Of a DNA stretch of 64,000 bases, positions 8,078 to 23,540 are shown one piece after another (positions within the stretch are counted from its first letter, which is position 1; every line of letters starts with the position of its first letter). The stretch spans positions 1 through 64,000 of the forward strand of contig NZ_JFKC01000018.1 of the NCBI RefSeq assembly GCF_002115805.1, given 5' to 3'. The notes beneath the pieces were generated by a model. It was given only the letters and a program-made list of their open reading frames with translations. It was not told where the DNA came from and made no database searches. Both the position numbers and the translations under genes were made by a program. Origin of the DNA: Marivita geojedonensis (GTDB lineage: Bacteria > Pseudomonadota > Alphaproteobacteria > Rhodobacterales > Rhodobacteraceae).

Positions 8078-8647
8078 ATGGATATTGGCGGCAGACTCAG
8101 AGCGATACGTGAGGCCAAGGGCATGTCACAGCGTGACCTTGCCAGCCGGGCTGGCCTGACGAGCGCGGCGATTTCCCTAATCGAACAAAACAAGTCCAGC
8201 CCGTCCGTTGCGTCTCTGAAAAGCCTGCTGGACGCAATCTCGATGACTATGTCGGAGTTCTTCATTGAGGTTGAGGATGCCGGCACGCCGAAATATTTCT
8301 ACACCGCCGACGAGCTGATCGAGCTTTCGCCGCAGGAGCTTGGCCTCGGGAGTGGGTCGGAGCGCGTGTCGCTCCGACAAGTGGGGGAGGCGTCGCGCCA
8401 CTCCCTCCAAATGCTCCACGAAGTCTACCCGCCCGGTTCCGATACGGGGCCAGACATGTTGCGCCATGAAGGCGAAGAGGCCGGGATCGTGATTGAGGGC
8501 ATTATCGAGGTAACCGTCGGCGATGTCGTGCGAGTCCTGAACCCTGGTGATGGGTATCTGTTCGACAGCACGATTCCGCACCGGTTCCACAATATTGGAG
8601 ATAAAAAGTGTGTTGTAATAAGTGCTTGTACGCCGCCCAGTTTTTAG
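8078..8647 (+). CDS. XRE-family HTH regulator with C-terminal cupin (PuuR-like)
   Basis: A 189-aa regulator. Residues 1-60 form an XRE helix-turn-helix (RLRAIREAKGMSQRDLASRAG, then TSAAISLIEQNKSSP). Residues 105-189 form a cupin sensor with GSDTGPDMLRHEGEEAG and LFDSTIPHRFHN. This architecture is that of PuuR and related regulators of amine and amino-acid catabolism. It is transcribed away from the gabT-like operon and toward the TAXI-TRAP genes, so it probably controls both arms in response to the imported substrate or an intermediate. A ribosome site (AAGGGGA) precedes the ATG. Confidence 0.86.
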   Translation: MDIGGRLRAIREAKGMSQRDLASRAGLTSAAISLIEQNKSSPSVASLKSLLDAISMTMSEFFIEVEDAGTPKYFYTADELIELSPQELGLGSGSERVSLRQVGEASRHSLQMLHEVYPPGSDTGPDMLRHEGEEAGIVIEGIIEVTVGDVVRVLNPGDGYLFDSTIPHRFHNIGDKKCVVISACTPPSF

Positions 8648-8812: not shown

Positions 8813-9775
8813 ATGAACAAGTTTATCAAGGCTGTTGTTGCAGTCACATTTGCAGTATCGGCCACCGCTGCGGCCGCACAAGAGCGTTTCATAACCATCG
8901 GGACGGGTGGTCAGACCGGCGTTTACTTCGTGGTGGGACAGTCGATCTGTCGCCTAGTCAACCGCGGGTCGGCCGATCACGGGCTGAAATGCACGGCACC
9001 CTCCACCGGCGGCTCGATTGCCAACATCAATGCCATCGCGGCGGGCGACATGGATATGGGTGTCGCGCAGTCGGACTGGCAGTACCACGCCTATAACGGA
9101 TCTTCTGAGTTCGAGGGCAAGCAGGTCGGCGATCTGCGCGCCGTGTTCTCGGTCCATCCCGAGCCGTTCACTGTCGTGGCGCGCACCGACAGTGGCGCGA
9201 CTGACTTCGACAGCCTCTTTGGCAAGCGTGTAAACGTGGGCAACCCGGGCTCCGGCCAGCGTGGCACGATGGAAGTCGTGCTAAACGCCATGGGCAAGAG
9301 CATCGACGACTTTTCGCTCGCCTCAGAGCTGAAGTCGGCCGAGCAATCGGCAGCTCTGGGCGACAACAAGGTGGACGCAATCGTCTTCACTGCGGGTCAC
9401 CCGAACGGCTCCATCCAGGAAGCGACCACCACTACCGATGCCAAGCTGATCCCGGTGACCGGCCCGGCCATCGACAAACTGGTGTCTGAAAACCCGTACT
9501 ATGCCAAGGCGACCATTCCAGGCGGCATGTATAAGGGCAATGACGCAGATATCGAAACGTTCGGAGTGAAGGCGACCTTCGTGACCAAGGCCAGCGTGCC
9601 CGACGATGTTGTTTATACCGTTGTTAAGGCCGTGTTCGATAATTTCGATCGCTTCAAGGGTCTGCACCCGGCGTTTGCTAACCTGCAGGAAGCGGACATG
9701 ATCTCAGGTGGGCTGAGTGCGCCGCTGCACCCGGGTGCCGAGAAATACTACCGCGAGAGAGGTTGGATCCAGTGA
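8813..9775 (+). CDS. TAXI-family TRAP transporter substrate-binding protein
   Basis: A 320-aa periplasmic binding protein. Residues 1-22 form a signal peptide ending AAAAQ, followed by FITIGTGGQTGVYFVVG, the hallmark N-terminal strand-turn of TAXI (TRAP-associated extracytoplasmic immunogenic) proteins. Later parts include GNPGSGQRGTME and the EKYYRERGW C-terminus. It captures the substrate for the fused permease encoded after a 108-bp gap with a hairpin. A strong GAAAGGGAGA ribosome site precedes the ATG. Known TAXI ligands include glutamate-like and other carboxylates, which fits the catabolic genes, but the ligand here is unknown. Confidence 0.92.
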   Translation: MNKFIKAVVAVTFAVSATAAAAQERFITIGTGGQTGVYFVVGQSICRLVNRGSADHGLKCTAPSTGGSIANINAIAAGDMDMGVAQSDWQYHAYNGSSEFEGKQVGDLRAVFSVHPEPFTVVARTDSGATDFDSLFGKRVNVGNPGSGQRGTMEVVLNAMGKSIDDFSLASELKSAEQSAALGDNKVDAIVFTAGHPNGSIQEATTTTDAKLIPVTGPAIDKLVSENPYYAKATIPGGMYKGNDADIETFGVKATFVTKASVPDDVVYTVVKAVFDNFDRFKGLHPAFANLQEADMISGGLSAPLHPGAEKYYRERGWIQ

Positions 9776-9883: not shown

Positions 9884-12622
9884 ATGACAGATCAGGATCA
9901 GACACAGGCGGCAGGGCAGGTCGCTCTGAACCAATCCGAACTCGACGAACTGGTTGCCTCTTCCGACACAGGCGGCCGCAGCCCGTCTCTACCGGTTGCC
10001 CGGTTCATCACCATCGTCGCGATCTTCTGGTCGCTATTCCAGCTTTGGATCGCCTCGCCCATTCCATTCATGGTGGGCTTTGGCGTTTTCAACGATACCG
10101 AAGCACGGGCCTTCCACCTGGCATTTGCTCTTTTTCTCGCTTACGCCGCTTATCCGGCGGCACGCACACCGTTCCAGCTCTTGCTGGGGATCGGAATTCC
10201 GATTCTGCTGGCGTTTCTCTTCATCATCGGGATCGGCGGTCTGGGCGCGGGGTGGTGGATCATTCTGGTCGCAGCCGCCGTGGTGGCAGCTATTGTCATG
10301 GGATCACCAAAGCATTGGGTCCCGCCCTGGGAATGGGCGCTCGCCATCGTGGGCGCAATCACCTCACTCTACATCTTTTTCGCCTATGATGGCATCGCGA
10401 GCCGGGTAGGTGCTCCAATTACGCAGGACCTTGTGATCAGCGTCATCGGCATGATCTTGCTGCTGGAGGCCACGCGGCGCGCGCTCGGCCCTGCGCTGAC
10501 CATCGTGGCATCAGTCTTCCTAGCCTACACGTTCCTCGGGCCTTACATGCCCGGCATCATCGCCCATAGCGCGAAGTCGTTGGGCGTGGTCGCCAACCAC
10601 CAGTGGATCACCACGGAGGGCGTCTTCGGTATCGCGCTGGGCGTGTCGACCTCATTCGTCTTCCTGTTCGTCCTCTTCGGCTCGCTCCTCGACAAGGCGG
10701 GGGCGGGTAATTACTTCATCCAGGTCGCGTTCTCGCTTATGGGTCATATGCGTGGGGGACCGGCAAAAGCGGCGGTCGTTTCCTCGGCCATGACCGGGCT
10801 CATCTCGGGCTCTTCCATCGCCAACGTGGTGACCACGGGGACGTTTACGATTCCACTGATGAAGCGAGTGGGCTTCTCCTCCGAGAAAGCCGGCGCGGTA
10901 GAGGTCGCATCTTCCGTGAACGGGCAGATCATGCCGCCCGTCATGGGTGCCGCGGCCTTCCTGATGGTTGAATACGTCGGCATTCCTTATTTTGACGTGG
11001 TCAAGCACGCATTCCTGCCTGCGGTCATTTCCTACGTCGCGCTCGTCTACATTGTGCACCTTGAAGCTATGAAGGCGAACATGCAGGGGCTGCCACGCGC
11101 GGTCGAACCCAAGCCGCTGGTCGCCTGGTTGATCAGCCTCGCCTTCACTATAGCGGTCATTTGCGCGCTGTCCTTTGGGGTCTACTACACAATGGGCTGG
11201 ATTCGTCCTGCCTTCGGGAAAGCTGCTCCTTGGATCGTGTTCGGCGGCTTGACGGTCGTATATATCGCGTTGCTCTACGTTGCTTGCAAACAGCCGCGCC
11301 TCAAGATGGAAGACCCTAACGCGCCGGTGACCAAGCTGCCACCGCCGGGGCCGACGATCCGCGCGGGCCTGCACTTCCTGCTGCCGGTGGTGGTGCTGGT
11401 CTGGGCACTCATGGTGGACCGCAAGTCGCCGGGCCTGTCGGCCTTCTGGGCGGCGGCCTTCATGATTTTCATCCTCGTAACACAACGCCCGCTGGAAGCG
11501 ATGTTCCGCGGCGAAGGCAGCGTGGCCGGTGCCGTCTCGCGCGGCGTTCGCGAACTGTTAGAAGGGCTGGAAGCCGGCGCGCGCAATATGATCGGGATCG
11601 GCATTGCGACCGCGACCGCCGGCATCATCGTGGGCGCTGTCAGCCAGACCGGAGTCGGCTCGGCGCTGGCGGACGTGGTTGAGGTGCTATCGGGCGGCAA
11701 CATCATGGCGATTCTCGTGCTGACGGCGATCTTGTCGCTGATCCTCGGCATGGGTCTGCCGACTACGGCGAACTACATTGTCGTCTCGGCCCTACTTGCC
11801 CCGGTCATTGTGACCTTAGGCCAGCAGAACGGGTTGATCGTTCCTCTAATCGCAGTGCACCTGTTCGTCTTCTATTTCGGCATCATGGCGGACGTTACCC
11901 CACCGGTTGGCCTGGCCAGTTTCGCGGCCGCCGCCGTTTCGGGCGGCGACCCTATCCGCACAGGGGTGGTCGCATTCTTTTACAGTCTGCGGACCGCCGC
12001 CCTGCCGTTCCTCTTTATCTTCAACACTGATCTGCTGCTTATCGATGTGGGCTGGGCACAGGGGATATTCGTCTTTATAACGGCAACACTGGCGATGCTT
12101 CTCTTCGCGGCTGCGACGCAAGGCTGGTTCCTTGCGCGCAACCGAATTTACGAGACCCTCGCGCTTCTCCTAATAGCCTTCACCCTGTTCCGCCCGGGTT
12201 TCTGGATGGACATGGTGGCACCGCCCTTCAACAATGTGCCGCCAGCTCAGATCGAGCAGGCGATGGCCGCCACGGAGGTGGGGCAGGACATCCGTCTGAC
12301 CATCGACGGGCTGAATGCTGTGGGAGATCCGGTGACCTTTACTGCCGTTCTTGCTGTGCCTGAGGGCGATACCGGAGCTGACAGGTTGATGACGGCGGGG
12401 ATCGAATACCTCGACAACGGCGGCAAGATCATGATCGACAACGTCGCTTTCGGTAGCGCGGCGCAGGCTGCTGGGCTCGACTGGGATCAGGAAATCGTCG
12501 CGGTACAGACACCAGCATCGCAGCCGACCAAGTACTTGATGTATCTGCCCGCGCTGCTGCTTCTGGCCCTCGTGGTGGTGCTGCAGCGCCGTCGCGCGTA
12601 CACGCAACCTGCCAAGGCATGA
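9884..12622 (+). CDS. TRAP transporter fused 4TM-12TM permease (TAXI type) with C-terminal DUF3394-like domain
   Basis: About 912 aa from the ATG at 9884, chosen because GGGGGAC lies before it; an in-frame ATG at 9848 lacks a good ribosome site. The N-terminal half carries the small-subunit helices, then the large DctM-type domain with GLISGSSIANVVTTG and GMGLPTTANYIVVSA. The last 150 residues form a soluble insert (residues about 785-885) with a GxAAQAAGLDWDQEIVA PDZ-like stretch, then one helix, matching the DUF3394 extension of fused TAXI permeases. It works with the binding protein as a sodium- or proton-driven importer in the inner membrane. Confidence 0.92.
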   Translation: MTDQDQTQAAGQVALNQSELDELVASSDTGGRSPSLPVARFITIVAIFWSLFQLWIASPIPFMVGFGVFNDTEARAFHLAFALFLAYAAYPAARTPFQLLLGIGIPILLAFLFIIGIGGLGAGWWIILVAAAVVAAIVMGSPKHWVPPWEWALAIVGAITSLYIFFAYDGIASRVGAPITQDLVISVIGMILLLEATRRALGPALTIVASVFLAYTFLGPYMPGIIAHSAKSLGVVANHQWITTEGVFGIALGVSTSFVFLFVLFGSLLDKAGAGNYFIQVAFSLMGHMRGGPAKAAVVSSAMTGLISGSSIANVVTTGTFTIPLMKRVGFSSEKAGAVEVASSVNGQIMPPVMGAAAFLMVEYVGIPYFDVVKHAFLPAVISYVALVYIVHLEAMKANMQGLPRAVEPKPLVAWLISLAFTIAVICALSFGVYYTMGWIRPAFGKAAPWIVFGGLTVVYIALLYVACKQPRLKMEDPNAPVTKLPPPGPTIRAGLHFLLPVVVLVWALMVDRKSPGLSAFWAAAFMIFILVTQRPLEAMFRGEGSVAGAVSRGVRELLEGLEAGARNMIGIGIATATAGIIVGAVSQTGVGSALADVVEVLSGGNIMAILVLTAILSLILGMGLPTTANYIVVSALLAPVIVTLGQQNGLIVPLIAVHLFVFYFGIMADVTPPVGLASFAAAAVSGGDPIRTGVVAFFYSLRTAALPFLFIFNTDLLLIDVGWAQGIFVFITATLAMLLFAAATQGWFLARNRIYETLALLLIAFTLFRPGFWMDMVAPPFNNVPPAQIEQAMAATEVGQDIRLTIDGLNAVGDPVTFTAVLAVPEGDTGADRLMTAGIEYLDNGGKIMIDNVAFGSAAQAAGLDWDQEIVAVQTPASQPTKYLMYLPALLLLALVVVLQRRRAYTQPAKA

Positions 12623-12635
12623 AGGAGGCCTGACC

Positions 12636-13061
12636 ATGTTCGACAATGTGCTTTTGCCAATCGATCTGAACCATCAGGCGTCCTGGGAGAAGGCGCTGCC
12701 CATGGGGCTCAAGCTTTCCGGAACCAACGGCACGCTGCACCTGCTGGGCATCGTTCATGACCTTGGCGCAGCCGCAATTGCCTCTTACCTGCCTGATGGG
12801 TTCGAAGAAAGGGCACTCCAGAAGATGAAGGCGGATCTCGATGCCTTCATCGCCGAAAAGCTCCCGGCTGGGGCGAAGGCAGAGGCCCATGTGGGTCACG
12901 GCCATGTGCCGGAGCATATCCTGTCCGCCGCCAGGGACCTAGGTGCAGATGTGATCGTCATGGCCTCGCATCCGCCGGACGAATTGATGACCTTCCTCGT
13001 GGGATCGCACGCCGACCGGGTCGTGCGCCACGCGGATCGTCCCGTGCTCGTCGTGCGCTAG
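12636..13061 (+). CDS. Universal stress protein (UspA family), TRAP-associated
   Basis: A 141-aa protein with the Usp fold: FDNVLLPIDLNHQASWEKAL at the N-terminus and the ATP-binding loop DVIVMASHPPDELMTFLVGSHADRVVRHADRPVLVVR at the end, which matches G-x2-G-x9-G-type nucleotide binding with small changes. It starts 13 bp after the permease with a GGAGG site. A Usp gene directly after TRAP permease genes, as with TeaD, is a known arrangement and suggests ATP-dependent control of transport. Confidence 0.88.
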   Translation: MFDNVLLPIDLNHQASWEKALPMGLKLSGTNGTLHLLGIVHDLGAAAIASYLPDGFEERALQKMKADLDAFIAEKLPAGAKAEAHVGHGHVPEHILSAARDLGADVIVMASHPPDELMTFLVGSHADRVVRHADRPVLVVR

Positions 13062-13218: not shown

Positions 13219-14187
13219 ATGACCCCTTTCGCGATCGCCGGTGTGCAAATGCACGTCGCGGCCCTTCATTCGAACGTAGAGGCGATGCGGCACAGGATCG
13301 ATGTGCTAATGGCGCGGTTTCCCTGGACTCAGATGGTCCTGTTCTCGGAGCTGGCGCCCTATGGCCCGCTGGATAAGTTCGCCCAGCCCTTCCCAAACGA
13401 TGCCCTGTCGCAGTTCCAGGAAGACGCGCGGCGCTACGGGATCTGGCTAATCCCCGGTTCGATGTTCGAAAAGACCGAAGACGGGCGCATCTTCAACACC
13501 TCCGTGGTGATCAATCCCGACGGCGATATCGTCGCGAAATATTCCAAGATGTTCCCTTTCCGGCCATACGAGGCTGGGATCGCCGCGGGGACCGAGTTCT
13601 GCGTTTTCGATGTGCCCGAGATGGGTCGGTTCGGCCTGTCGATCTGCTATGACATCTGGTTCCCCGAAACCACACGCCAGTTGACCAGCCAGGGCGTTGA
13701 AGTCCTTTTGCATCCGGTTCTGACAGGCACAACTGACCGCGATGCCGAACTGGCCATAGCACGGGCTACGGCGGCGCAATTCCAGTGCTATGTCTTCGAC
13801 GTGAACGGTCTGGCCGCAGGCGGGGTGGGGCGGTCCATAGTGGTGGATCCGGCGGCGACCGTGTTGCACCAATCGGCGGGACAGGAAGACATGTTCCCGA
13901 TCGAGGTCGACCTCGACCAGGTGCGTCGCCAACGCGAGACCGGAATCAAGGGTTTGGGGCAGGTTCTGAAGAGCTTCCGCGATCGCGATGCGGAATTCAG
14001 TGTCTACAACCGGGCAAGCGGCATCGACGGCTATCTGCACACGCTGGGGCCGCTTGAGATGCCCCGCAAGGGTTCCGGCCGGGGAATGCAGGCGGGGGAT
14101 CCGCGAACCGCGCTCGGTTATGTAGAGACGCCGTCGGTCCCACCGAATAACTTTTCCGTTTTCCACGGCAAGACGGGAGCTGACTGA
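13219..14187 (+). CDS. Carbon-nitrogen hydrolase (nitrilase superfamily amidase)
   Basis: A 322-aa protein from the ATG at 13219, preceded by CGGAGAAAG. The catalytic Glu-Lys-Cys triad is visible: Glu in LFSELAPYG, Lys in YSKMFPFRPYE and Cys in LSICYDIWFPE. The family hydrolyses or condenses carbon-nitrogen bonds in amides, carbamoyl compounds or nitriles in the cytoplasm. An N-carbamoylputrescine amidase-type or omega-amidase-type role would fit the amine-catabolic setting. The C-terminal 50 residues after YLHTLGPLEMP are an extension. It lies 46 bp before the decarboxylase gene. Confidence 0.85.
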   Translation: MTPFAIAGVQMHVAALHSNVEAMRHRIDVLMARFPWTQMVLFSELAPYGPLDKFAQPFPNDALSQFQEDARRYGIWLIPGSMFEKTEDGRIFNTSVVINPDGDIVAKYSKMFPFRPYEAGIAAGTEFCVFDVPEMGRFGLSICYDIWFPETTRQLTSQGVEVLLHPVLTGTTDRDAELAIARATAAQFQCYVFDVNGLAAGGVGRSIVVDPAATVLHQSAGQEDMFPIEVDLDQVRRQRETGIKGLGQVLKSFRDRDAEFSVYNRASGIDGYLHTLGPLEMPRKGSGRGMQAGDPRTALGYVETPSVPPNNFSVFHGKTGAD

Positions 14188-14233: not shown

Positions 14234-16996
14234 ATGAAAACGCACGCGAACGATTCGAAACTGGGCTCTATCCGGGATTATTACAGCGCGACGCAGCTGA
14301 GGTCGGATCGATGGAGCGCCTTGCGAGAGGCCGCAGAAGGCCTGCACAGGCATGGTGTCGATGGCCGGCAGGGCAAGAAGCTTATTGCAACGGCCGAAGC
14401 CCTGTTTGAGGCGCTGGAGCCAATTGAACGGTACTGGGCTTTCCCCGGCGCACATGCCTTCGACCATCTGCGACGACTGCTGCATGCGGGTAATATCGAG
14501 GACCTTTCGATCGCCGTCCGCCGGGTGGCACGTGCGCTGACCTCGGGGGCCTACCGGCGGCGGAGCATTCCGCTCGGCGCGGATGAGGTCGACTCGGAGG
14601 ATTTCGAAGACGAATCCTCGCTAAGCCCGGAGGCGCGCTCCCTTGGGCGGCCCTATTTCGAAGTCCTGATAGTTGATGACGTCAACGAACATCAGGACCG
14701 CTTCCTGCGCCACAGTCTCATGCGTATGCGCCGACCTGAAGACCCCTTCATATACGAGCCGGTTGTGGTGCCCTCGCTCGAGGATGCTTTGATCGGAATT
14801 CTCTTCAATTACAACGTGCAAGCGGTCGTTGTTCGGCCGGGTCTGACTCTGAAGTCCCGCAATGAGCTGCCCATTCTTAGCCAGTACCTGAACCACTTCC
14901 GGGAGGACGAGGAAGTTGACGCGATCGAGCCGCACGAATACGGGCCAGAGGCCTGCCGCTTGATTGCCAAGATTCGTCCCGAACTGGACGCCTACCTGAT
15001 CACAGACCGCTCAGCGGAGGATATCGCCGGTCTTGATCTGGGGCGGTGCCGGCGGGTGTTTTACAACCAGGAAGACTTCCTCGAACTTCACCTGAATATC
15101 CTGCGCGGTGTGAACCGGCGCTACAAGACGCCCTTCTTCACTGCGCTCAAAGAATATTCGCGTCAGCCGACCGGCGTTTTTCACGCCATGCCGATCAGCC
15201 GGGGTAAGTCGATCTCGCGCAGTCACTGGATTCAGGACATGGGGGCCTTCTACGGACCCAACATCTTCCTGGCCGAGACCTCGGCTACGTCCGGAGGCCT
15301 CGACAGCCTTCTGGAACCGCGAGGCCCGATCAAGGAAGCGCAGGACATGGCCGCGCGTGCGTTCGGCTCGAAGCACACTTTCTTTGCCACCAACGGCACC
15401 TCGACCTGTAATAAGATAGTCGTGCAATCGCTAGTGCGGCCGGGAGACATCGTGCTGGTCGACCGGGATTGCCACAAATCCCATCATTATGGGATGGTTC
15501 TGGCAGGGGCAAATGTCGTCTACATGGACAGCTACCCGCTGCACGAATATTCGATGTACGGCGCCGTGCCCGTGCGGGAGATCAAACATCACTTGCTGAA
15601 GCTTAAAGCAGCCGGGAAGCTTGACCGCGTCCGAATGGTTCTGCTGACGAACTGTACCTTCGATGGGCTGGTTTACAATGTGCAGCGCGTCATGGAAGAA
15701 TGTCTCGCGATTAAGAAGGACCTGATTTTCCTTTGGGACGAGGCATGGTTTGGCTTCGCGCGTTTCAGTCCGACATACCGTCAGCGCACGGCCATGGGTG
15801 TGGCCAATACTTTGCGGGAAACCCTGCGCCTGCCGGAAACGGCTGAGACCTGGGAGCGCCAGCAGGCCGAGCTGGAGGGCGCCGACGAGGAAACGATGCT
15901 CAACACCCGGCTGGTCCCACCGCCGGATGCAAGGGTGCGGGCTTATTCCACCCAATCGACGCACAAGACCCTGACGTCGTTGCGGCAAGGCTCGATGATC
16001 CACGTTAACGATCAAGACTTCAAAGGAGAGGTCGAGCAGGCCTTCCACGAGGCTTACATGACCCACACCTCTACCAGCCCGAACTATCAGATCATAGCAT
16101 CGCTCGACGTGGGACGGCGGCAGGTCGAATTAGAAGGGTTCGAGTTCGTACAGCGGCAAGTGGAAAGCGCGATGGCGATCCGCCGGGCGATCATGACGCA
16201 CCCGCTTCTGAAGAAGTACTTCCGCGTGCTGACGGCGGGCGACATGATCCCTGATGGCTATCGCGAAAGCGGGATGGAGAGCTATTACGACCCGGCGCAG
16301 GGCTGGACGGACAAGTGGTCGGTCTGGAATCAGGACGAATTCGTCCTCGACCCGACCCGCATCACGCTGGCCGTGGGCGGCACGGGTTGGGACGGTGATA
16401 CGTTCAAGACAAAGATCTTGATGGATAAATATGGGATCCAGATCAACAAGACCTCACGTAACACCGTGCTCTTCATGACCAATATTGGTACGACGCGCAG
16501 TTCCGTTGCCTATCTGATTGAGGTTCTCGTCGAGATTGCCAATGAGCTGGACGATCTACTCGACGATGCGTCGAAGATGGAGCGGCGATCATTCGAGAAC
16601 CGCGTCGCGGCGCTGATCGAGCATGTGCCGCCACTGCCCGATTTCAGCCGGTTCCACGACGCTTTCCGTGCAGGCAAGGACACGCCCGAAGGCGACATCC
16701 GGGAGGCGTTCTTCCTCGCCTACGACGAGGACAATTGCGATTACCTCGATCTGGACGAGACGCTGATTGAACGCCTTGAGAAGGGCGATGAACTGGTTTC
16801 GGCCAGCTTCATCATCCCCTATCCACCGGGGTTTCCGATCTTGGTACCGGGGCAGGTGATCAGCCCCGAGATTATGACGTTCATGCGCGCACTGGACGTG
16901 AGCGAAATTCACGGTTTCCGACCGGATCTGGGCCTGCGTGTGTTCACGCCGGACGCCTTAGCCGGAGTGATAAAGAAACTCAAGGGAGAGGAATGA
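14234..16996 (+). CDS. Orn/Lys/Arg-type PLP decarboxylase, long form
   Basis: A 920-aa protein, longer than E. coli CadA/SpeC/AdiA (710-760 aa). Residues 1-140 are an extra helical domain, 150-300 a receiver-like wing domain (FEVLIVDDVNEHQDRF), 310-760 the fold-type I core, then the C-terminal domain. In the core, ATSGGLDSLLEP, FFATNGTSTCNKIVVQ, FLWDEAWFGFARF (PLP Asp) and YSTQSTHKTLTSLRQGSMIH with the Schiff-base Lys578 are clear. It should release CO2 from a basic amino acid to give a diamine or agmatine, although the distant sequence means that the substrate could be unusual. It sits 3 bp before an ATP-grasp gene and is probably cotranscribed with it. Confidence 0.88.
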   Translation: MKTHANDSKLGSIRDYYSATQLRSDRWSALREAAEGLHRHGVDGRQGKKLIATAEALFEALEPIERYWAFPGAHAFDHLRRLLHAGNIEDLSIAVRRVARALTSGAYRRRSIPLGADEVDSEDFEDESSLSPEARSLGRPYFEVLIVDDVNEHQDRFLRHSLMRMRRPEDPFIYEPVVVPSLEDALIGILFNYNVQAVVVRPGLTLKSRNELPILSQYLNHFREDEEVDAIEPHEYGPEACRLIAKIRPELDAYLITDRSAEDIAGLDLGRCRRVFYNQEDFLELHLNILRGVNRRYKTPFFTALKEYSRQPTGVFHAMPISRGKSISRSHWIQDMGAFYGPNIFLAETSATSGGLDSLLEPRGPIKEAQDMAARAFGSKHTFFATNGTSTCNKIVVQSLVRPGDIVLVDRDCHKSHHYGMVLAGANVVYMDSYPLHEYSMYGAVPVREIKHHLLKLKAAGKLDRVRMVLLTNCTFDGLVYNVQRVMEECLAIKKDLIFLWDEAWFGFARFSPTYRQRTAMGVANTLRETLRLPETAETWERQQAELEGADEETMLNTRLVPPPDARVRAYSTQSTHKTLTSLRQGSMIHVNDQDFKGEVEQAFHEAYMTHTSTSPNYQIIASLDVGRRQVELEGFEFVQRQVESAMAIRRAIMTHPLLKKYFRVLTAGDMIPDGYRESGMESYYDPAQGWTDKWSVWNQDEFVLDPTRITLAVGGTGWDGDTFKTKILMDKYGIQINKTSRNTVLFMTNIGTTRSSVAYLIEVLVEIANELDDLLDDASKMERRSFENRVAALIEHVPPLPDFSRFHDAFRAGKDTPEGDIREAFFLAYDEDNCDYLDLDETLIERLEKGDELVSASFIIPYPPGFPILVPGQVISPEIMTFMRALDVSEIHGFRPDLGLRVFTPDALAGVIKKLKGEE

Positions 16997-16999
16997 AGA

Positions 17000-18451
17000 A
17001 TGCCGAAGAAGACATTGAAAAACATATCGGAAATCCGCCGGTATTTCCACACGAATGCCGATCCGATCTACTTCGTGTCCGCCACGAACTTCAATCTTCT
17101 GGGCCTCGACGAGTGGGTCAAGAACTTCAAGTACATCTGTTACATGGATTGCTTCGACGGGCGGCATCCCAATGTCCTGTGCCCCTCGGAGATGCCCCAT
17201 GACGAATTCCAGTCCATTGAGGACATCAACAACTACCTGCTGCAGCACAAAGAAGTCGTCGACTATGTTAAGTCGCGCGGTGGCAAGCCGAAGTTCGTCT
17301 TCCTGATGTTCGACCAGACCACCGAGAAATTGGTCAAGGAACTGGGCGGCGAAGTCTGGTTCCCCAAGGCCAAGCTGCGGACGCATATGGACAACAAGAT
17401 AGAAACGGTCCGTGTCGGCAACAAGGCGGGCGTGCCGTCCGTGCCCAACACGCTCTCCAAGGTCGAAAGCTACGAGCATCTGCGCGAGATTTGCGAGGAG
17501 TCCGGTCTTGGTCATGACCTCGTGCTGCAGTCCGCCTTTGGCGACAGCGGACACACGACGTTCTTCATCAAGTCTGAGGCCGACTTCCGCAAGCACGAAC
17601 ACGAGATCGTGGGTGAAGGCGAAATCAAGATTATGAAGCGGATCGACTGTCGCGGGTCGGCCATCGAAGCCTGCGCCACATCCGAAGGCACTATTGTCGG
17701 CCCATTGATGACCGAGCTTGTCGGTTTCAAGGAATTGACTCCTTATCGCGGCGGCTGGTGCGGCAACGAGATCTTCTCGACAGCCTTTCCCCCGAAGACT
17801 CGCGAGGCGGCCCGCGACCTGACCTTCAAGTTCGGGGAGCAACTGCGCAAGGAAGGATACCGAGGTTATTTCGAACTGGACTTCCTGATCGACAAGAAGA
17901 CTGGCGAGATCTGGCTGGGCGAGTTGAACCCGCGGATTACCGGGGCTTCGTCAATGACCAACCATGCGGCATTCGCCCATGCGGATGCGCCGCTCTTCCT
18001 ATTCCACCTGCTGGAGTTTTCGAAAAAGCCCTTTCAACTGAGTGTCGAGGAGCTGAACGCCCGCTGGGCGGACCCGGACATGATCGACTCCTGGAGTCAG
18101 ATGGTGATCAAGCATACCGAAGACAGCGTCGACATCATCACGCAGGCCCCGCAATCGGGCATCTACAAGATGCTGCCAGATGGCAGCGTGGTCTATGACC
18201 GGTTCGACTATCACCGCCGTGCCGTTGAAACTGAGGACGAAGCTTTCTTCCTGCGGATTTCCAATGTTGGCGACTATCGCTATGAGGGTGCTGACCTCGG
18301 GATTCTGGTGACGCGCGGGCGGTCGATGACGAAGAGCTTCCAATTGACCGCGAAATCGAAGAAATGGATCGAAGGGATTAAGGCATCCTATTCGGCCCGG
18401 TCGCTGCCGTCTGCACAGGCTTTCGAGGACCCGGCGTTCAAGATAATGTAG
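17000..18451 (+). CDS. ATP-grasp carboxylate-amine ligase-like protein
   Basis: A 483-aa protein. Residues about 115-330 carry ATP-grasp features: DNKIETVRVGNKAGVPSVPN, DLVLQSAFGDSGHTTFFI as the glycine-rich loop, IKIMKRIDCRG, and YFELDFLIDKKTGEIWLGELNPRITGAS with the metal-binding Glu/Asn. It lacks the biotin carboxylase lid arrangement and a biotin partner gene, so the common biotin carboxylase label is probably misleading. The family joins a carboxylate to an amine via an acyl phosphate. The gene starts 3 bp after the decarboxylase stop and ends 5 bp before the C45 gene, suggesting one tightly coupled unit. Confidence 0.82.
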   Translation: MPKKTLKNISEIRRYFHTNADPIYFVSATNFNLLGLDEWVKNFKYICYMDCFDGRHPNVLCPSEMPHDEFQSIEDINNYLLQHKEVVDYVKSRGGKPKFVFLMFDQTTEKLVKELGGEVWFPKAKLRTHMDNKIETVRVGNKAGVPSVPNTLSKVESYEHLREICEESGLGHDLVLQSAFGDSGHTTFFIKSEADFRKHEHEIVGEGEIKIMKRIDCRGSAIEACATSEGTIVGPLMTELVGFKELTPYRGGWCGNEIFSTAFPPKTREAARDLTFKFGEQLRKEGYRGYFELDFLIDKKTGEIWLGELNPRITGASSMTNHAAFAHADAPLFLFHLLEFSKKPFQLSVEELNARWADPDMIDSWSQMVIKHTEDSVDIITQAPQSGIYKMLPDGSVVYDRFDYHRRAVETEDEAFFLRISNVGDYRYEGADLGILVTRGRSMTKSFQLTAKSKKWIEGIKASYSARSLPSAQAFEDPAFKIM

Positions 18452-18456
18452 GATGT

Positions 18457-19467
18457 ATGTCACTCACTTTCAGAGCGATATCGGAAGACGAGCCTGGCCC
18501 GAAATGGGCCGGGCTCTTTGCCGAGTATCGAACGGCCTATCTGGACTGGTGGGCCAGCGAAGGGCTCTCCGGCCGTCCGACCTACCTCGAATGCCGGCGG
18601 GCGTTCAAGAAGTACATGCCTGAGCTTCTGTCTGTTTACGATCAGCTGTGCGCATTGGCCGGCGGAGGCGATATGGAGGCGCGATTTCTCAGCTTCTATT
18701 GCCCGCCCCGATACCTGACTGGGTGCAGCCAGGCGGTCTGGTCCGGGGATGAGCCGCTGCTGGTGAGGAACTACGATTACAACCCGCACGCGGTCGATGC
18801 GGTGCTGTTGCGCACCAATTGGCAAGGTCGGCAGGTTATAGGCATGTCGGATGGCCTCTTCGGTCTCATTGACGGCATGAACGACGCGGGGCTGGTCGCG
18901 TCGCTGACCTTCGGTGGACGGCAGGCGACAGGCGTCGGCTTCGGCGTGCCGGTGATCTTGCGCTACATCCTACAGACCTGCACCACCGTGGCCGAGGCCT
19001 GCGAGGTTCTGACCAAGGTGCCCTGCCATATGAGCTACAACGTGACGGTTCTGGATGCCAAACGGCATTTCCTGACCGCCTATCTGGCGCCCGACCGGCC
19101 GCCGGTGATCTCACGCGCGGCCGTAGCGACCAACCATCAGGAGCGAGTTGAATGGAAAAGCCACGCAAGGCTGACTGCCACCGTCGAGCGGGAGCGTTAT
19201 CTTCTCCAACGGCTGACCCTGCATCCTGAAACGCAGGATCGGTTCATCGCTGCGTTCCTGAAACCGCCGCTCTATTCGCTGGCCTTCGATCGGGGGTTCG
19301 GGACGCTTTTCACTGCCGCCTATGCCCCGTTGCGCGAGCAGGTGGAACTGCTCTGGCCGGGCACGAAATGGGTCAAGACCTTCGGCGATTTCATCGAGGA
19401 TCGTATCACGGTCACCTATCCGATCGGCGGCACCTTTGAACGGCGGAGTAATACTCGGCCATGGTAG
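18457..19467 (+). CDS. C45-family autoproteolytic acyltransferase/hydrolase
   Basis: A 336-aa N-terminal-nucleophile protein. In this family the precursor is cut before a Cys that becomes the nucleophile; here the site is TGCSQAVW with Cys90, giving an 89-residue propeptide. NYDYNPH after it and GLIDGMNDAGLVASLTFGG are typical of the acyl-CoA:6-aminopenicillanate acyltransferase-like branch, which also includes amide hydrolases. Directly after an ATP-grasp ligase, it could remove or transfer an acyl group the ligase installs. The gene ends 100 bp before a broken IS6 transposase and its last residues (ERRSNTRPW) could have been changed by that insertion. Confidence 0.83.
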   Translation: MSLTFRAISEDEPGPKWAGLFAEYRTAYLDWWASEGLSGRPTYLECRRAFKKYMPELLSVYDQLCALAGGGDMEARFLSFYCPPRYLTGCSQAVWSGDEPLLVRNYDYNPHAVDAVLLRTNWQGRQVIGMSDGLFGLIDGMNDAGLVASLTFGGRQATGVGFGVPVILRYILQTCTTVAEACEVLTKVPCHMSYNVTVLDAKRHFLTAYLAPDRPPVISRAAVATNHQERVEWKSHARLTATVERERYLLQRLTLHPETQDRFIAAFLKPPLYSLAFDRGFGTLFTAAYAPLREQVELLWPGTKWVKTFGDFIEDRITVTYPIGGTFERRSNTRPW

Positions 19468-19566: not shown

Positions 19567-20225
19567 ATGATCAGACGTTCGCCTTTTCGCTACTTCAAAA
19601 CCAGCCAGGAGGGTCTTGTCAGAAGAACTTTGCTTGAGCGAGGCATCGACGTGAGCCACGAAACTGTCCAATTTTTTGGAACAGGTTTGTCCCGATGTTT
19701 GCTGCTGAGATCAGACGGAAGCGTGTTCAGCAGCGGCGCGCGTCATCGAAATGGAAGTGGTACGTGGACGAGGTTTTCGTGAAGGTAAATGGCAGGCGGG
19801 ATTATCTTTGGCGGGCTGTTGATCACGAAGGTGAGGTGCAGGAAGCCGTTGTCACCAAACGCCGAAACAAAACTACAGCGCTGAAATTCCTCAAGAAATT
19901 GACGAAGCGCCATGGTTGTTCGGAAGAGATCATCACTGACCGTCTTGAGTCTTGGAAAGCAGCGCTCCGCGAGCTCGGCGCGTTGGACAATCAGCGCACA
20001 GGCAGATTTTTCGACAACCGAGTTGAGAACTTGCACCTGCCGTTCCGACGAAGAGAACCCGCCATGCAGCGATTCAGACGCATGCGAAGTCTGCAGAAAT
20101 TCGCCGCCGTCCATGCCTCCGTCTACAACCACTTCAACCAAGAAAAATCGCTCACGAGGCGAGACATCTTCAAGCTGACACGTAGTTCCGCACTTGCCGA
20201 GTGGCGCGAACTTGGCGTGGGATAA
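19567..20225 (+). pseudogene. IS6-family transposase remnant, frameshifted
   Basis: The N-terminal part (from 19567) reads FRYFKTSQEG and LLERGIDVSHETVQF; the second part, in another frame from 19695 on, reads MFAAEIRRKR, KWYVDEVFVKVNG (first Asp), EIITDRLESW (second Asp) and NRVENLHLPFRRRE (Glu) then MRSLQKFAAVHASVYNHFN. These are the DDE parts of IS6/IS26-like transposases. The frame break falls at a six-T run (19672-19677), and around 20 residues between FKTS and LLERG are missing relative to the family. Terminal repeats are not clear: CAAAC with TTGAA words occur on both flanks but only imperfectly. The element is probably dead. Confidence 0.85.
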
Positions 20226-20320: not shown

Positions 20321-21574
20321 ATGAAAGTCGTTGTCATGGGAGCGGGTGTCGTCGGTGTCACTACGGCGTGGTATCTGGCGCGCGGGGGGGTGGAGGTCAC
20401 CGTGATCGACCGGCAGCCGGGCCCCGGGCTTGAGACAAGCTATGCAAATGCCGGTGAATTGTCCTACGGGATGACATCGCCATGGGCCGCGCCAGGCATT
20501 CCAATGAAGGCGCTCAAGTGGCTCTTTATGAAACGCCGACCACTCTTCATCTGGCCGCTCATTAGCCCGACCATGTGGGTCTGGGGTCTCCAGATGCTCC
20601 GCAACTGTAACGAAGGGAGTTACCGGATCAACAAGTCTCGGATGGTGCGGATTTCGAGCTACTCGCGCGATTGCCTGCCCGAGTTGATCGCCAAGACCGG
20701 GGTTGAATATGACGGCCGCGAGCAGGGGACTTTACAGCTGTTCCGCACCGAGAAGCAGCTCAAGGCGTCAAAGGCCGATCAGGAGATCCTGGCCGAATAC
20801 GACTCTCCCTTCGAGGTTCTCGACCGGGACGGGTGTGTCGCCGTCGAACCCGCGCTTGCGCATGTCCGCGACAAGTTCGTCGGCGGCCTCAGACTGACAT
20901 CCGACAGGACCGGCGACTGCAGGATGTTCACCGTCTCGCTGGCCGAGAAATGCGCTGAGGCCGGTGTCGAGTTCCTCTATGGCCAGACGATTCAAAGCAT
21001 CGATGTCGAAAACAATCGTGTCGTCGGAATAGAAACGGAGCCCGCCGGGCGGATTACGGGGGACAAGTACGTCTGCGCCATGGGCAGCTATGCGCCACGC
21101 GTGCTGAACCCGATCGGTATCCGGCTCCCAATCTATCCGGTGAAGGGCTACTCGGTCACGTTGCCCGTTGTGGACGATGAGGGCGCGCCGCAGTCGACGA
21201 TCATGGACGAAACCCACAAGGTGGCGATCACACGGCTTGGCGACCGCATCCGGGTTGCTGGACAGGCCGAGATCGCAGGCTACTCAGGGCGCTTGGGTCC
21301 GCACGCGACCGATACGGTACATTACGTCGTCAATGATCTCTTTCCAAAGGGCGGCGATCTCTCGAAATCCGAGGGTTGGACGGGCCTGAGGCCGATGACG
21401 CCAGACGGCACGCCTGTCCTCGGATCGACCCGCCTGAAAAACCTTTTCCTGAATACGGGGCACGGCACGCTTGGCTGGACGATGGCGGCTGGGTCCGGGA
21501 AAGCGGTGGCCGACCTTGTGCTGGGTCATAAACCCGCAATCGATTTTGATGGCCTCACAGCTGAGCGATATTGA
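20321..21574 (+). CDS. dadA: D-amino acid dehydrogenase-like FAD oxidoreductase
   Basis: A 417-aa DAO-family flavoprotein. The FAD dinucleotide motif VMGAGVVGVTTAWYLARGG is at the N-terminus, followed by ETSYANAGELSYGMTSPWAAPG, a DadA signature. The C-terminal GLRPMTPDGTPVLGSTRLKNLFLNTGHGTLGWT closes the flavin site. It oxidatively deaminates D-amino acids or similar amines, passing electrons to the membrane quinone pool. It lies after the IS6 remnant in the same direction as the ligase cluster, so it may once have been the last gene of that operon; alternatively it handles the D-form of the imported substrate. Confidence 0.86.
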   Translation: MKVVVMGAGVVGVTTAWYLARGGVEVTVIDRQPGPGLETSYANAGELSYGMTSPWAAPGIPMKALKWLFMKRRPLFIWPLISPTMWVWGLQMLRNCNEGSYRINKSRMVRISSYSRDCLPELIAKTGVEYDGREQGTLQLFRTEKQLKASKADQEILAEYDSPFEVLDRDGCVAVEPALAHVRDKFVGGLRLTSDRTGDCRMFTVSLAEKCAEAGVEFLYGQTIQSIDVENNRVVGIETEPAGRITGDKYVCAMGSYAPRVLNPIGIRLPIYPVKGYSVTLPVVDDEGAPQSTIMDETHKVAITRLGDRIRVAGQAEIAGYSGRLGPHATDTVHYVVNDLFPKGGDLSKSEGWTGLRPMTPDGTPVLGSTRLKNLFLNTGHGTLGWTMAAGSGKAVADLVLGHKPAIDFDGLTAERY

Positions 21575-22504: not shown

Positions 22505-23392
22505 TTGGGCGTCTTACATGTGGCAGGTCAATCAACTTGCCCCTGTGGTGTGCCTGGATCGTTCACTTGTTTTTGTTTGGCACATTCGATCAGCATTTGG
22601 GCCAACAGTACTGGAACCAAAAATGCGTGGTCTGCTTGCCTCGCACCAAAACGGTTTGGGTCCACCGTATTGGTAGACCCGTTAGCGTTCTGTGCCAATC
22701 AGGCGTCGAGGAAGCACTCTCCAAAACAGCACGACATGGCCGGAACGCATGCTGTGCGAGTGTTGAATTGGGCCGTTGAAGAAGGACTTCTATCAGAGCA
22801 TCACTGTCATCGACTACCCAAACTATATGAGGTTGATCGCTCCGAAGTCGTTTGGACGCCATCCGATCGGCAAGCCGTTAACGCAATAGCACCAGAATGG
22901 ATCCAGCGCATTCTGTGTGTTGCCTGTGAAACAGGATTGAGACCAGGTGACCTCATCAAGCTCACCAAGGCATCTGTCGAAAACACACCTCTCGGGCGTC
23001 GTCTGAGAGTGCGGACGAGCAAACGTGGACGTGTGGCTCACATTCCTATCACTCAAGCACTCGCAGAGGTCATCGATGCAACGCCAAATGACCGGCTTCT
23101 GATCCTGACAAACGCCAGTGGGGGACAATTGACTGAACATCGCGCCTCAGAAGGCTTGCGGCAATGGCGTGACAAGGCAGGGCTAAGCCAGGAACTCCGT
23201 CTGCAAGACTGCAGAGGAACAGCGGCGACTAGGCTACTCAATGCGGGTCTCAGCTTATCTCAGATCGCAAGTCACATGGGTTGGTCACTGCGTCATGCCG
23301 CCAATGTCATTGAGCACTACGCGCGTGTTTCGCCGAGTGAAACCGATGCTGTTCTGGTCAAGCTGGCTGAGTCCAGAAAGACCGCAAAGTGA
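22505..23392 (+). CDS. Tyrosine recombinase (phage-type integrase), N-terminal part doubtful
   Basis: The C-terminal 220 residues are a tyrosine recombinase catalytic domain: CETGLRPGDLIKLTK (Arg I), RTSKRGRVAHIPIT (Lys), CRGTAATRLLNAG (Arg II), HMGWSLRHAANVIEHYARV with the Tyr nucleophile. The usual HxxR box reads QDCR, so the His is replaced by Gln. LYEVDRSEVVWTPSDRQAV and HAVRVLNWAVEEGLL match the end of the core-binding domain. Upstream of about 22720 the frame no longer looks like an integrase, so the N-terminal arm-binding domain may be lost, frameshifted or read in another frame; the given start is only the longest frame. It lies 74 bp from the intact tRNA, the normal place for an island integrase. 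Confidence 0.72.
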   Translation: MGVLHVAGQSTCPCGVPGSFTCFCLAHSISIWANSTGTKNAWSACLAPKRFGSTVLVDPLAFCANQASRKHSPKQHDMAGTHAVRVLNWAVEEGLLSEHHCHRLPKLYEVDRSEVVWTPSDRQAVNAIAPEWIQRILCVACETGLRPGDLIKLTKASVENTPLGRRLRVRTSKRGRVAHIPITQALAEVIDATPNDRLLILTNASGGQLTEHRASEGLRQWRDKAGLSQELRLQDCRGTAATRLLNAGLSLSQIASHMGWSLRHAANVIEHYARVSPSETDAVLVKLAESRKTAK

Positions 23393-23464: not shown

Positions 23465-23514
23465 AATGGAGGCGAGTACCGGAATCGAACCGGTGTACAC
23501 GGATTTGCAATCCG
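23465..23514. repeat. attR: 50-bp direct repeat overlapping the intact tRNA-Cys
   Basis: Identical to 987-1036 over 50 bases. The repeat covers the tRNA from the anticodon stem to the CCA end and two bases beyond it. Distance between the two copies is 22,478 bp, the size of the integrated unit. Confidence 0.93.
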
Positions 23515-23540
23515 CTGCGTCACCACTCCGCCAACTCGCC
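23467..23540 (-). tRNA. tRNA-Cys (GCA)
   Basis: The 74-nt minus-strand sequence begins GGCGAGTTGGCGGAGTGGT and ends with the CCA encoded. The acceptor arm GGCGAGT pairs with ACTCGCC, the discriminator is T as in tRNA-Cys, the anticodon loop carries GCA, and the T arm has GGTTCGATTCC. It is intact although it serves as the integration site of the island to its left. Confidence 0.97.

Follow-up and report, generated by a model that had tools for sequence, protein, structure and literature searches.

Why should a PLP-dependent decarboxylase, an ATP-grasp ligase that databases call a biotin carboxylase and an amide hydrolase of the C45 type be encoded within a few base pairs of one another? This question is raised by the window analyzed here, the whole 64,000-nucleotide stretch of Marivita geojedonensis contig NZ_JFKC01000018.1 (positions 1 to 64,000), for which a first-pass annotation had suggested a conjugation-deconjugation pathway. 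The explanation we favor, at a probability of roughly 0.4, is that the operon degrades arginine, ornithine or another closely related amino acid of the arginine type to GABA and succinate via a transient protecting amide. Searches of open-access papers turned up no description of such an operon or pathway.

Layout of the core quartet and its flanking genes

The ORF calls place the decarboxylase (14234-16996, 920 aa), the ligase (17000-18451, 483 aa) and the C45/AAT-type Ntn hydrolase (18457-19467, 336 aa) on the plus strand with gaps of 3 and 5 bp, confirming the tight spacing given by the first-pass annotation. The interval 14234-19467, taken there as the whole unit, is too short. A nitrilase-superfamily amidase (CN_hydrolase, PF00795, 3.6e-29; 13219-14187, plus strand) sits 46 bp upstream of the decarboxylase, and since it co-occurs in 39/39 ligase-positive genomes, a unit of the trio only was rejected; the functional unit is a quartet with the amidase as its fourth core member.

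Further upstream on the same strand lie the genes for a TAXI-family TRAP solute-binding protein (8813-9775; TIGR02122, 348.2 bits, cut-off 84.35), a fused TRAP permease (DctM plus DUF3394, 9884-12622; TIGR02123, 649.3 bits, cut-off 320.65) and, between the transporter and the amidase, a UspA-family protein (12636-13061; PF00582, 6.1e-22). These genes are probably also part of the operon unit, which would be co-transcribed. A PuuR-like regulator with HTH and cupin domains (8123-8647, plus strand) scored 136.4 bits against PuuR model NF007408, below the cut-off of 211. The minus strand carries GabT, a GABA transaminase whose gene diverges from the operon (6520-7902; TIGR00700, 546.9 bits, cut-off 506.65), and the class-III aminotransferase PRK07483 (5095-6366; NF005685, 742.8 bits, cut-off 485). 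Downstream, an IS6-like ORF separates the C45 gene from that of a D-amino acid dehydrogenase, DadA (20321-21574, plus strand; NF001933, 629.5 bits, cut-off 383), whose membership is uncertain. Rfam at gathering thresholds identified one tRNA and nothing else between positions 4000 and 24000, and this interval therefore holds no known riboswitch.

Families and catalytic residues of the four core enzymes

By its OKR_DC_1 match (1.7e-75), its PLP lysine and its full-length homology to Rv2531c, the decarboxylase is classed at the sequence level as a fold-type I enzyme of the Orn/Lys/Arg type, and His577-Lys578 and Asp502 are invariant in 96/96 decarboxylases. The first-pass annotation had remarked on an extra N-terminal domain; the first ~298 aa indeed have no Pfam match, but they are not special to this protein, as residues 20-911 align with solved Rv2531c (PDB 9n0n, E 7e-251; further structures 9n0o and 9n0p), long N-terminus included. 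The long form is therefore a known architecture. Scores far under the listed NCBIfam cut-offs for Arg, Lys and Orn decarboxylases were obtained, and the alignments do not settle the substrate. The activity of M. tuberculosis Rv2531c is itself described as not clarified in the available text of PMC12910592.

The ligase matched NF005096 (PRK06524 family) over residues 2-470 of 483 with 753.2 bits (cut-off 684). The name of this model, the match above its cut-off and a weak likeness to the biotin carboxylase domains of carboxylases would suit a true biotin carboxylase whose carrier is another protein, the outcome that the first-pass annotation had seen as fatal to its pathway; the matches in PDB sequence searches were weak only, mostly to carboxylases. 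In biotin carboxylases, the Gln-Val-Glu-His that follows the Asn-x-Arg motif supplies catalytic residues. This motif is absent from all 107 ligase sequences, which carry Thr/Ser/Cys-Gly-Ala/Cys/Ile-Ser instead: NPRIQVEH in 3tw6 aligns with NPRITGAS of the ligase, and position 316 is Ala in 100 sequences, Cys in 5, Ile in 2 and Glu in none. Lys133, Glu308, Asn310 and Arg312 are invariant (107/107). At E <= 0.001 no Pfam family was matched in the ligase, Biotin_carb_C, the C-terminal biotin carboxylase domain, included. Among 1542 proteins called in 102 neighborhood stretches from relatives, a single one had a convincing biotinylation motif (L046, 20395-21417), ~8 kb past the quartet of that stretch, and no carboxyltransferase was present among the window proteins scanned. 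With domain and catalytic motif missing and hardly any carrier encoded nearby, biotin carboxylase was rejected as the function of the ligase, and we give this reading almost no weight; the database name does not fit the family and, judging from these residues and domains, is apparently wrong. No function for the family was found in the open-access literature, and in the main text of PMC5320631 the COG numbers searched for and the terms ATP-grasp and biotin carboxylase do not occur. A structure prediction for the ligase, based on an alignment of 38 sequences whose other members share 83-92% identity with that of the window, was discarded at a pLDDT of 56.5, and the pocket could therefore not be read.

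The C45 protein exceeded the cut-off of NF040521 (172.6 versus 85 bits) and also matched Pfam AAT (PF03417). Its AF2 model (pLDDT 86.1) best resembled the isopenicillin N acyltransferase precursor 2x1c (TM 0.70, E 5.3e-13), and in this model the enzyme has the isopenicillin N acyltransferase fold with catalytic residues intact. Cys90, Arg104, Asn105, Asp107 and Asn142 are invariant in 100/100 sequences, with Asn195 in 93 and Arg238 in 87 of them, while residue 89 is Gly in 89 and Ala in 11. We take Cys90 to be the nucleophile and the Arg, Asn and Asp to be active-site residues; self-cleavage before Cys90 is expected. A second group of C45 paralogues (41-46% identical, e.g., L146-L150) has different neighbors and was left aside. 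The amidase residues Glu44, Lys110, Glu118 and Cys143 are invariant (97/97), and the protein fell below the cut-off of every NCBIfam model listed, with no characterized equivalog over cut-off.

Co-inheritance and neighboring genes in relatives

The co-occurrence of the trio, which the first-pass annotation had proposed as a check, was borne out in 195 genomes from the order of the window. The ligase is present in 39 of them, and in all 39 the quartet genes share one contig, with the decarboxylase and amidase <=3.5 kb and the C45 gene <=0.6 kb from the ligase. The decarboxylase was found in 39/39 ligase-positive versus 1/156 ligase-negative genomes; the Fisher value of 2.4e-40 is merely indicative because the species are related, and the co-occurrence of ligase and decarboxylase is not chance. 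The gene order is retained in named members of the Alphaproteobacteria and Betaproteobacteria as well as in genomes of other classes, and the conserved amidase-decarboxylase-ligase-hydrolase block occurs in some marine and soil bacteria. The decarboxylase was detected in 99/102 stretches and the amidase in 92/102; C45 was not found in L045 and L117. In 95/102 stretches, ligase and C45 are directly adjacent on the same strand (median gap 8 bp), which favors one metabolite cycle. Divergence of the four proteins is correlated (r 0.84-0.94 at 83 loci with all four genes), partly through mere species relatedness. The cluster also holds the TAXI-family protein in 34, the fused permease in 35, the UspA-family gene in 32 and the PuuR-like regulator in 42 of the 102 stretches.

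Genes for GABA metabolism recur nearby. In L153 (on the contig of L092), L155, L156, L158 (on the contig of L089) and L159, a PRK07483 homologue directly follows C45 on the same strand; in L161 it lies one gene further on. Succinate-semialdehyde dehydrogenase (SSADH) over the TIGR01780 cut-off was found in the divergent block of 6/6 stretches scanned (L046, L048, L055, L057, L060, L062). In C. necator (L133), a PuuC-like aldehyde dehydrogenase (ALDH) scored 656.4 bits, below the cut-off of 850. No amine oxidase or dehydrogenase was recognized among the named recurrent neighbor clusters, which counts against the favored reading.

Additional neighbors suggest arginine metabolism. In L151, whose cluster has the decarboxylase, a ureohydrolase over the agmatinase cut-off and 75% identical to that of Shinella follows C45. 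In L117, a stretch that fits the favored reading poorly for its lack of C45, a second ureohydrolase over this cut-off lies upstream of the amidase with one gene between. Near ligase and C45, Shinella L095 encodes an amino-acid permease with an AA_permease_C domain, a ureohydrolase, an ALDH, a 2-ketoarginine decarboxylase over cut-off and a protein that resembles ornithine racemase (below cut-off) and has a C-terminus of the arginase family; DadA follows C45 in the Shinella-type stretches L095, L131 and L132. The arginine link rests on few loci because the Shinella-like ureohydrolase is rare (4/105 stretches, three of them near-identical Shinella-type, and 1/15 further stretches) and agmatinase-family genes, in 191/195 genomes of the order, are not discriminating in their distribution. 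Altogether, the agmatinase-type ureohydrolase, 2-ketoarginine decarboxylase, SSADH and PuuC-like ALDH point to catabolism of an arginine-type amino acid to GABA.

The Shinella-type clusters join ligase and C45 to genes of the arginine transaminase/dehydrogenase route (AruI, 4-guanidinobutyrate, GABA), which in its textbook form, to our knowledge, needs neither ligase, C45 enzyme nor nitrilase. In L095, L131, L132 and L133, ligase, C45 and amidase occur with no decarboxylase in the 21-25 kb covered, and what is conjugated may therefore be something other than the product of that enzyme; in the Shinella-type clusters this misfits a tag on its amine. The same pathway could operate with the ligase activating an acid, 4-guanidinobutyrate or GABA, instead of the amine. 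The acid would become an amide, the ureohydrolase would strip the guanidino group and C45 or the amidase would release GABA, while decarboxylase plus aminotransferase would be interchangeable with the Shinella racemase, DadA and 2-ketoarginine decarboxylase in supplying the same aldehyde. The association of ligase, C45 and amidase with the 2-ketoarginine decarboxylase route argues for this version, as does the 75% identity between the ureohydrolases of L095 and decarboxylase-bearing L151. However, neither route is seen in the 21 kb covered for C. necator (L133), and we know of no precedent for amidation of 4-guanidinobutyrate ahead of hydrolysis; we consider acid activation rather unlikely.

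Some contexts differ. A urea-transporter gene lies near the cluster in L128/L129, and in L123 and L124, which come from outside the class of the window, the quartet lies inside an ectoine/2,4-diaminobutyrate catabolic cluster; both sit awkwardly with the favored reading. At the latter two loci the quartet is flanked, on the same strand, by an Lrp-type gene on one side and on the other by an ALDH and an aminotransferase that appear to occupy the doeC and doeD places. The cluster also has doeA, doeB and EhuR, which score over cut-off in L123 and are assigned by homology in L124, as would be expected if the quartet belonged to ectoine metabolism. Among 105 stretches, however, L123 and L124 are the only ones to combine doeA-like with doeB-like genes (a doeB-like gene at 54% is present in L093, a 23% match to doeA in L033), and GABA and arginine genes replace them at other loci; we regard an ectoine role of the quartet as very improbable.

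A proposed tag-process-release route

Gene content, protein families, conservation of catalytic residues, gene spacing, shared inheritance and neighbors are direct observations; from them we infer, for the favored catabolic reading, a substrate, a direction of flow, a tag with the intermediate that carries it and the individual reactions as follows. The TRAP system would import the substrate and the decarboxylase would produce an amine. The ligase may then activate the carboxylate of a putative tag as an acyl phosphate and couple it to the amine, and PRK07483 and an aldehyde dehydrogenase would oxidize the free end of the tagged intermediate. C45, having cut itself before Cys90, would hydrolyze the amide so that the tag is recycled, and the amidase may take off a primary-amide or ureido-type group. 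On the way to GABA the intermediates would be a C4 amine and aldehyde, with GabT and SSADH performing the last steps to succinate. Four-gene co-inheritance (39/39) and correlated divergence support this reading, as do GabT, PRK07483 and the PuuR-like regulator in the window, SSADH in relatives, the guanidino link in L151, L117 and Shinella L095, and the PuuC-like ALDH in L133; the few ureohydrolase loci, the unreadable ligase pocket and the amidase lacking a characterized equivalog weigh against it.

The Puu/Pau putrescine route of E. coli and Pseudomonas offers a similar logic: PuuA, its ligase, has the glutamine-synthetase fold and PuuD performs the release, whereas a ligase of the ATP-grasp type and a C45 Ntn hydrolase would serve here, and the quartet additionally has a built-in decarboxylase and amidase. 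Common to both would be tagging, oxidation and release followed by GABA aminotransferase and SSADH; the PuuR-like regulator of the window and the PuuC-like ALDH of L133, both below their cut-offs, point the same way. No PuuA-type ligase was found among the 14 window proteins scanned. In the relevant text of PMC9397018, the route comprises ATP-dependent gamma-glutamyl tagging, oxidation, hydrolytic release, GABA aminotransferase and SSADH.

A second likeness is the insect enzyme Tan, which is classed under C45. The insect cycle combines a decarboxylase that yields an amine, Ebony, which adds beta-alanine with ATP (products N-beta-alanyldopamine and carcinine), and Tan, which removes it, is similar to isopenicillin N acyltransferase and is self-processed at Gly121-Cys122, according to the portions of PMC5085778 concerned. 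It shares with the quartet a decarboxylase, an ATP-using ligase and an acyltransferase-like hydrolase; Ebony, however, is NRPS-like and eukaryotic, and its role is in pigment and vision, not catabolism. The formation and hydrolysis of beta-alanyl amines by Ebony and Tan (PMC5085778, same portions) is also consistent with a storage or osmolyte cycle, in which the ligase would convert a basic amino acid or amine into a stable amide resembling a dipeptide, for later mobilization by C45, and the UspA-family gene (32/102 stretches) and the ectoine setting of L123/L124 agree with it. With their genes separated by just a few bp, ligase and hydrolase would nevertheless run a futile cycle unless controlled post-translationally, and the transporter, GabT, PRK07483 and SSADH are catabolic neighbors, making storage improbable. 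Conjugate-process-release, as in Puu or Ebony/Tan, is the best reading. The first-pass proposal is partly supported: the PuuR-like regulator, GabT, SSADH and PuuC-like ALDH fit this part of it, but its conjugate is a predicted one, and the decarboxylase it included is missing from some of the stretches.

That adjacent ATP-grasp ligase and C45 enzymes tag and untag an arginine-derived metabolite en route to GABA, as an independently evolved protect-process-release route, is a proposal we hold slightly more tentatively than the catabolic role itself. If true, bacteria would have an equivalent of Ebony/Tan, and a first metabolic role would be in hand for the Rv2531c-type decarboxylases, an orphan family that has solved structures and, in the text available from PMC12910592, a reaction that is not clarified. 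The conserved gene order makes the functions of ligase and decarboxylase directly testable, and the apparently wrong biotin carboxylase annotation, which some hundreds of genomes share (416 relatives were counted and 80 of them examined), could be corrected. Knowing the substrate could also show how marine roseobacters obtain nitrogen and carbon from a polyamine or basic amino acid.

A four-gene unit in the window

Three forward-strand open reading frames encode an Orn/Lys/Arg-type PLP decarboxylase (DC; 14234-16996, 920 aa, family match), an ATP-grasp ligase (GSP; 17000-18451, 483 aa) and a C45/AAT Ntn hydrolase (C45; 18457-19467, 336 aa, family match), with gaps of 3 bp between DC and GSP and 5 bp between GSP and C45, which bears out the tight unit described in the first-pass annotation. 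A CN_hydrolase amidase of the nitrilase family (NIT; 13219-14187) lies upstream of DC, and UspA, a fused TRAP permease and a TAXI binding protein are likewise encoded on the forward strand 5' of the trio. GabT (TIGR00700 above cut-off) and a PRK07483 aminotransferase are divergent from these transporter and quartet genes, with a PuuR-like cupin regulator (score under cut-off) in between. An IS6-like transposase ORF (19695-20225, under cut-off) lies directly past C45, and the end of a phage-type integrase (22505-23392) adjoins a reverse-strand tRNA-Cys (23467-23540); these are mobility marks near an operon that is rare in the genus.

GSP was assigned to NCBIfam NF005096/PRK06524 (753.2 bits against a cut-off of 684), and its best PDB matches were weak alignments to biotin carboxylase domains. 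Lys133, Glu308, Asn310 and Arg312 were invariant among 107 sequences, which carried Thr/Ser/Cys-Gly-Ala/Cys/Ile-Ser at the site of the biotin carboxylase Gln-Val-Glu-His. Given this replacement, the zero matches in Pfam and the near-absence of biotinylation motifs nearby (a similar pattern in 6 of 1542 neighbouring proteins, convincing in one), a true biotin carboxylase with a separate carrier, the alternative set against the first-pass proposal, is close to excluded at the sequence level.

In C45, Cys90, Arg104, Asn105, Asp107 and Asn142 were invariant (100/100), with Asn195 in 93 and Arg238 in 87 of these sequences, and autoproteolysis before Cys90 is expected. The good predicted model (pLDDT 86.1) matched isopenicillin N acyltransferase best, followed by NAAA, acid ceramidase, penicillin V acylase and bile salt hydrolases. 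NIT retained Glu44, Lys110, Glu118 and Cys143 in 97/97 sequences, which correspond to the Glu-Lys-Glu-Cys residues that active nitrilase-type amidases share; it scored far under NCBIfam cut-offs, including that for N-carbamoylputrescine amidase (65.5 vs 410). His577-Lys578 and Asp502 of DC, catalytic by the roles assigned in the family, were invariant in 96/96 sequences, and DC scored far under the NCBIfam arginine, lysine and ornithine decarboxylase cut-offs. The N-terminal domain of DC, singled out previously as extra, is a known architecture, since residues 20-911 align with the M. tuberculosis homologue Rv2531c, whose activity is not clarified according to a 2026 review (PMC12910592).

Linkage and distribution of the quartet

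Scanning genome_contigs with the ligase gave 443 stretches and 416 relatives, the best 80 of which were examined. Genes were called with a codon-usage script and proteins clustered in 102 stretches (the window, L014-L098 and L115-L130), in which two contigs, going by their lengths, occur twice (L031/L115, L034/L125); later stretches also repeat earlier contigs (L145=L054, L153=L092, L154=L094, L158=L089, L160=L072). GSP, the basis of selection, is present in all 102 (fragmentary in L130), DC in 99 (absent from L050, L095, L130), C45 in 100 (fragmentary in L097; absent from L045, L117) and NIT in 92 (absent from L014, L071, L084, L087, L097, L098, L118, L128, L129, L130), and some stretches lacking a member break off at contig ends. 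Immediate same-strand neighbours were NIT-DC in 82 stretches, DC-GSP in 92 (median gap 19.5 bp) and GSP-C45 in 95 (median gap 8 bp). Linkage survives rearrangement, because gene order differs among loci: NIT-GSP-C45 with DC apart in Paracoccus (L054, L063, L065, L067), NIT-GSP-C45-DC in L123, L124 and L126, and DC-GSP with divergent C45 and NIT in L127.

Co-occurrence was also assessed in an unselected set, 195 genomes from the order of the window, where GSP (E <= 1e-60) was found in 39, DC in 40 and C45 homologues (E <= 1e-40) in 42. All 39 GSP genomes carried DC (at least 73% identity), C45 (at least 62%) and, in a search covering these 39 genomes only, NIT (at least 69%, at most 3.1 kb away) on the contig of GSP; the trio is co-inherited, in a unit that is wider than the trio. 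Gaps were at most 300 bp in 38/39 for both DC (3453 bp in G688) and C45 (597 bp in G612), and inner stops are reported for the DC gene in G762 and for C45 in both G832 and G782. Three genomes matched C45 although GSP-negative, each through a 44-45% paralogue only, and the DC of the sole DC-only genome, G794, is a 51% paralogue beside an AspT-type antiporter homologue, a cluster whose L142 member scored above the TIGR03802 cut-off. GSP is sparse in wider samples, being found in 8/289 genomes of a class sample (2/8 from the window's family, including a 255-bit partial match), 11/398 of a phylum sample (4/11 in that family) and 6/194 of another order. It was probably acquired in the window's genus, as few genomes there carry it (2/13; absent from one further genome). 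The quartet is real, strongly co-inherited and patchily widespread.

Several variants accompany this distribution. The Marivita lacus DC (L031:7236-9998 = L115:6832-9594) has one in-frame stop and is broken or mis-sequenced, with GSP, C45 and NIT all called as open genes. The contig of L014, binned as Woeseia, has a 92% identical ligase and is probably a mis-binned roseobacter contig. Rhizobial plasmids (L097, R. leguminosarum; L098, R. beringeri; L134, S. meliloti SM11) hold DC-GSP-C45 without NIT; in L097 the C45 fragment lies beside an IS30 transposase, DC was called as two ORFs and nifA is ~10 kb further, and in L098 and L134 a dipeptide-type ABC transporter follows downstream. In L141, L142 and L143, a second DC clade (about 49-51% identical) is accompanied by either one or two genes resembling AspT-type antiporters, which hints at amino acid/amine exchange; the ligase was not found in these stretches. 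A diverged second module (L144:8498-12972; GSP 46%, C45 41%, NIT 55%) is preceded by a class-I glutamine amidotransferase-like gene, and a group of C45 paralogues (L146-L150; about 42-45% identical) lies near a small conserved gene of 138-140 aa, with an esterase-like gene, identified by eye, in 2/5.

Neighbouring genes and a candidate pathway

The common theme of the neighbours is arginine-type substrates heading to GABA. Among the 102 stretches, class-III aminotransferase cluster members occur in 53, PuuR-like regulators in 42, TAXI members in 34 and one ALDH cluster in 13; all six scanned genes of the latter passed the SSADH cut-off, which the ALDH of L123 misses (595.3 vs 646.35). PRK07483 homologues directly follow C45 in L153, L155, L156, L158 and L159, those of L153 and L156 passing the cut-off; in L161 the homologue is one gene further on. 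In L151, a ureohydrolase gene follows C45; its product scored above the agmatinase cut-off and shares 75% identity with the ureohydrolase of the Shinella plasmid cluster. A Pot/Phn-like ABC transporter (ATPase under cut-offs) is also encoded after C45 there. In L117, where the stretch lacks C45, a single gene separates NIT from an agmatinase-family gene upstream of it. The quartet lies within an ectoine cluster in L123/L124, and a gene joining a urea-transporter domain to an M23 peptidase domain stands two genes upstream of DC in L128 (3483-5657) and, by homology, L129. The window, L091, L092, L094, L119, L152 and L161 each carry, close to the locus, a gene like the one for an FMN-binding glutamate synthase family protein in L094, a possible hint at a glutamyl donor.

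DC and PRK07483 could convert arginine (or ornithine) to a C4 aldehyde. The adjoining GSP and C45 suggest, by analogy, that one pathway may both make and break an amide, as in the gamma-glutamylation route of putrescine catabolism (Puu; PMC9397018) and the insect Ebony/Tan pair (PMC5085778), which share this tag-and-release or make-and-break logic but use enzymes different from GSP and C45. The main difficulty for amine tagging comes from the Shinella-type clusters (L095, L131, L132), which combine NIT, Lrp, an amino-acid permease, Usp, a ureohydrolase, a 2-ketoarginine decarboxylase (737 bits vs 500), ALDH, GSP, C45, DadA, an ornithine-racemase-like protein (393 bits vs cut-off 480; C-terminal arginase-family match) and RidA, and in which DC was not found. 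Racemase, DadA and keto-acid decarboxylase would there lead to the same C4 aldehyde, and this arrangement keeps alive the first rival, that GSP tags an acid rather than an amine. DC was likewise not found in the C. necator stretch L133, with a PuuC-like ALDH (under cut-off), NIT, GSP, C45 and, by eye, an oligopeptide-like ABC transporter.

As far as full-text searches of an open-access library could show, the quartet is undescribed. The protect-process-release pathway put forward in the first-pass annotation, with its chemistry inferred from genes, is unproven but stands as the best single explanation of the quartet.
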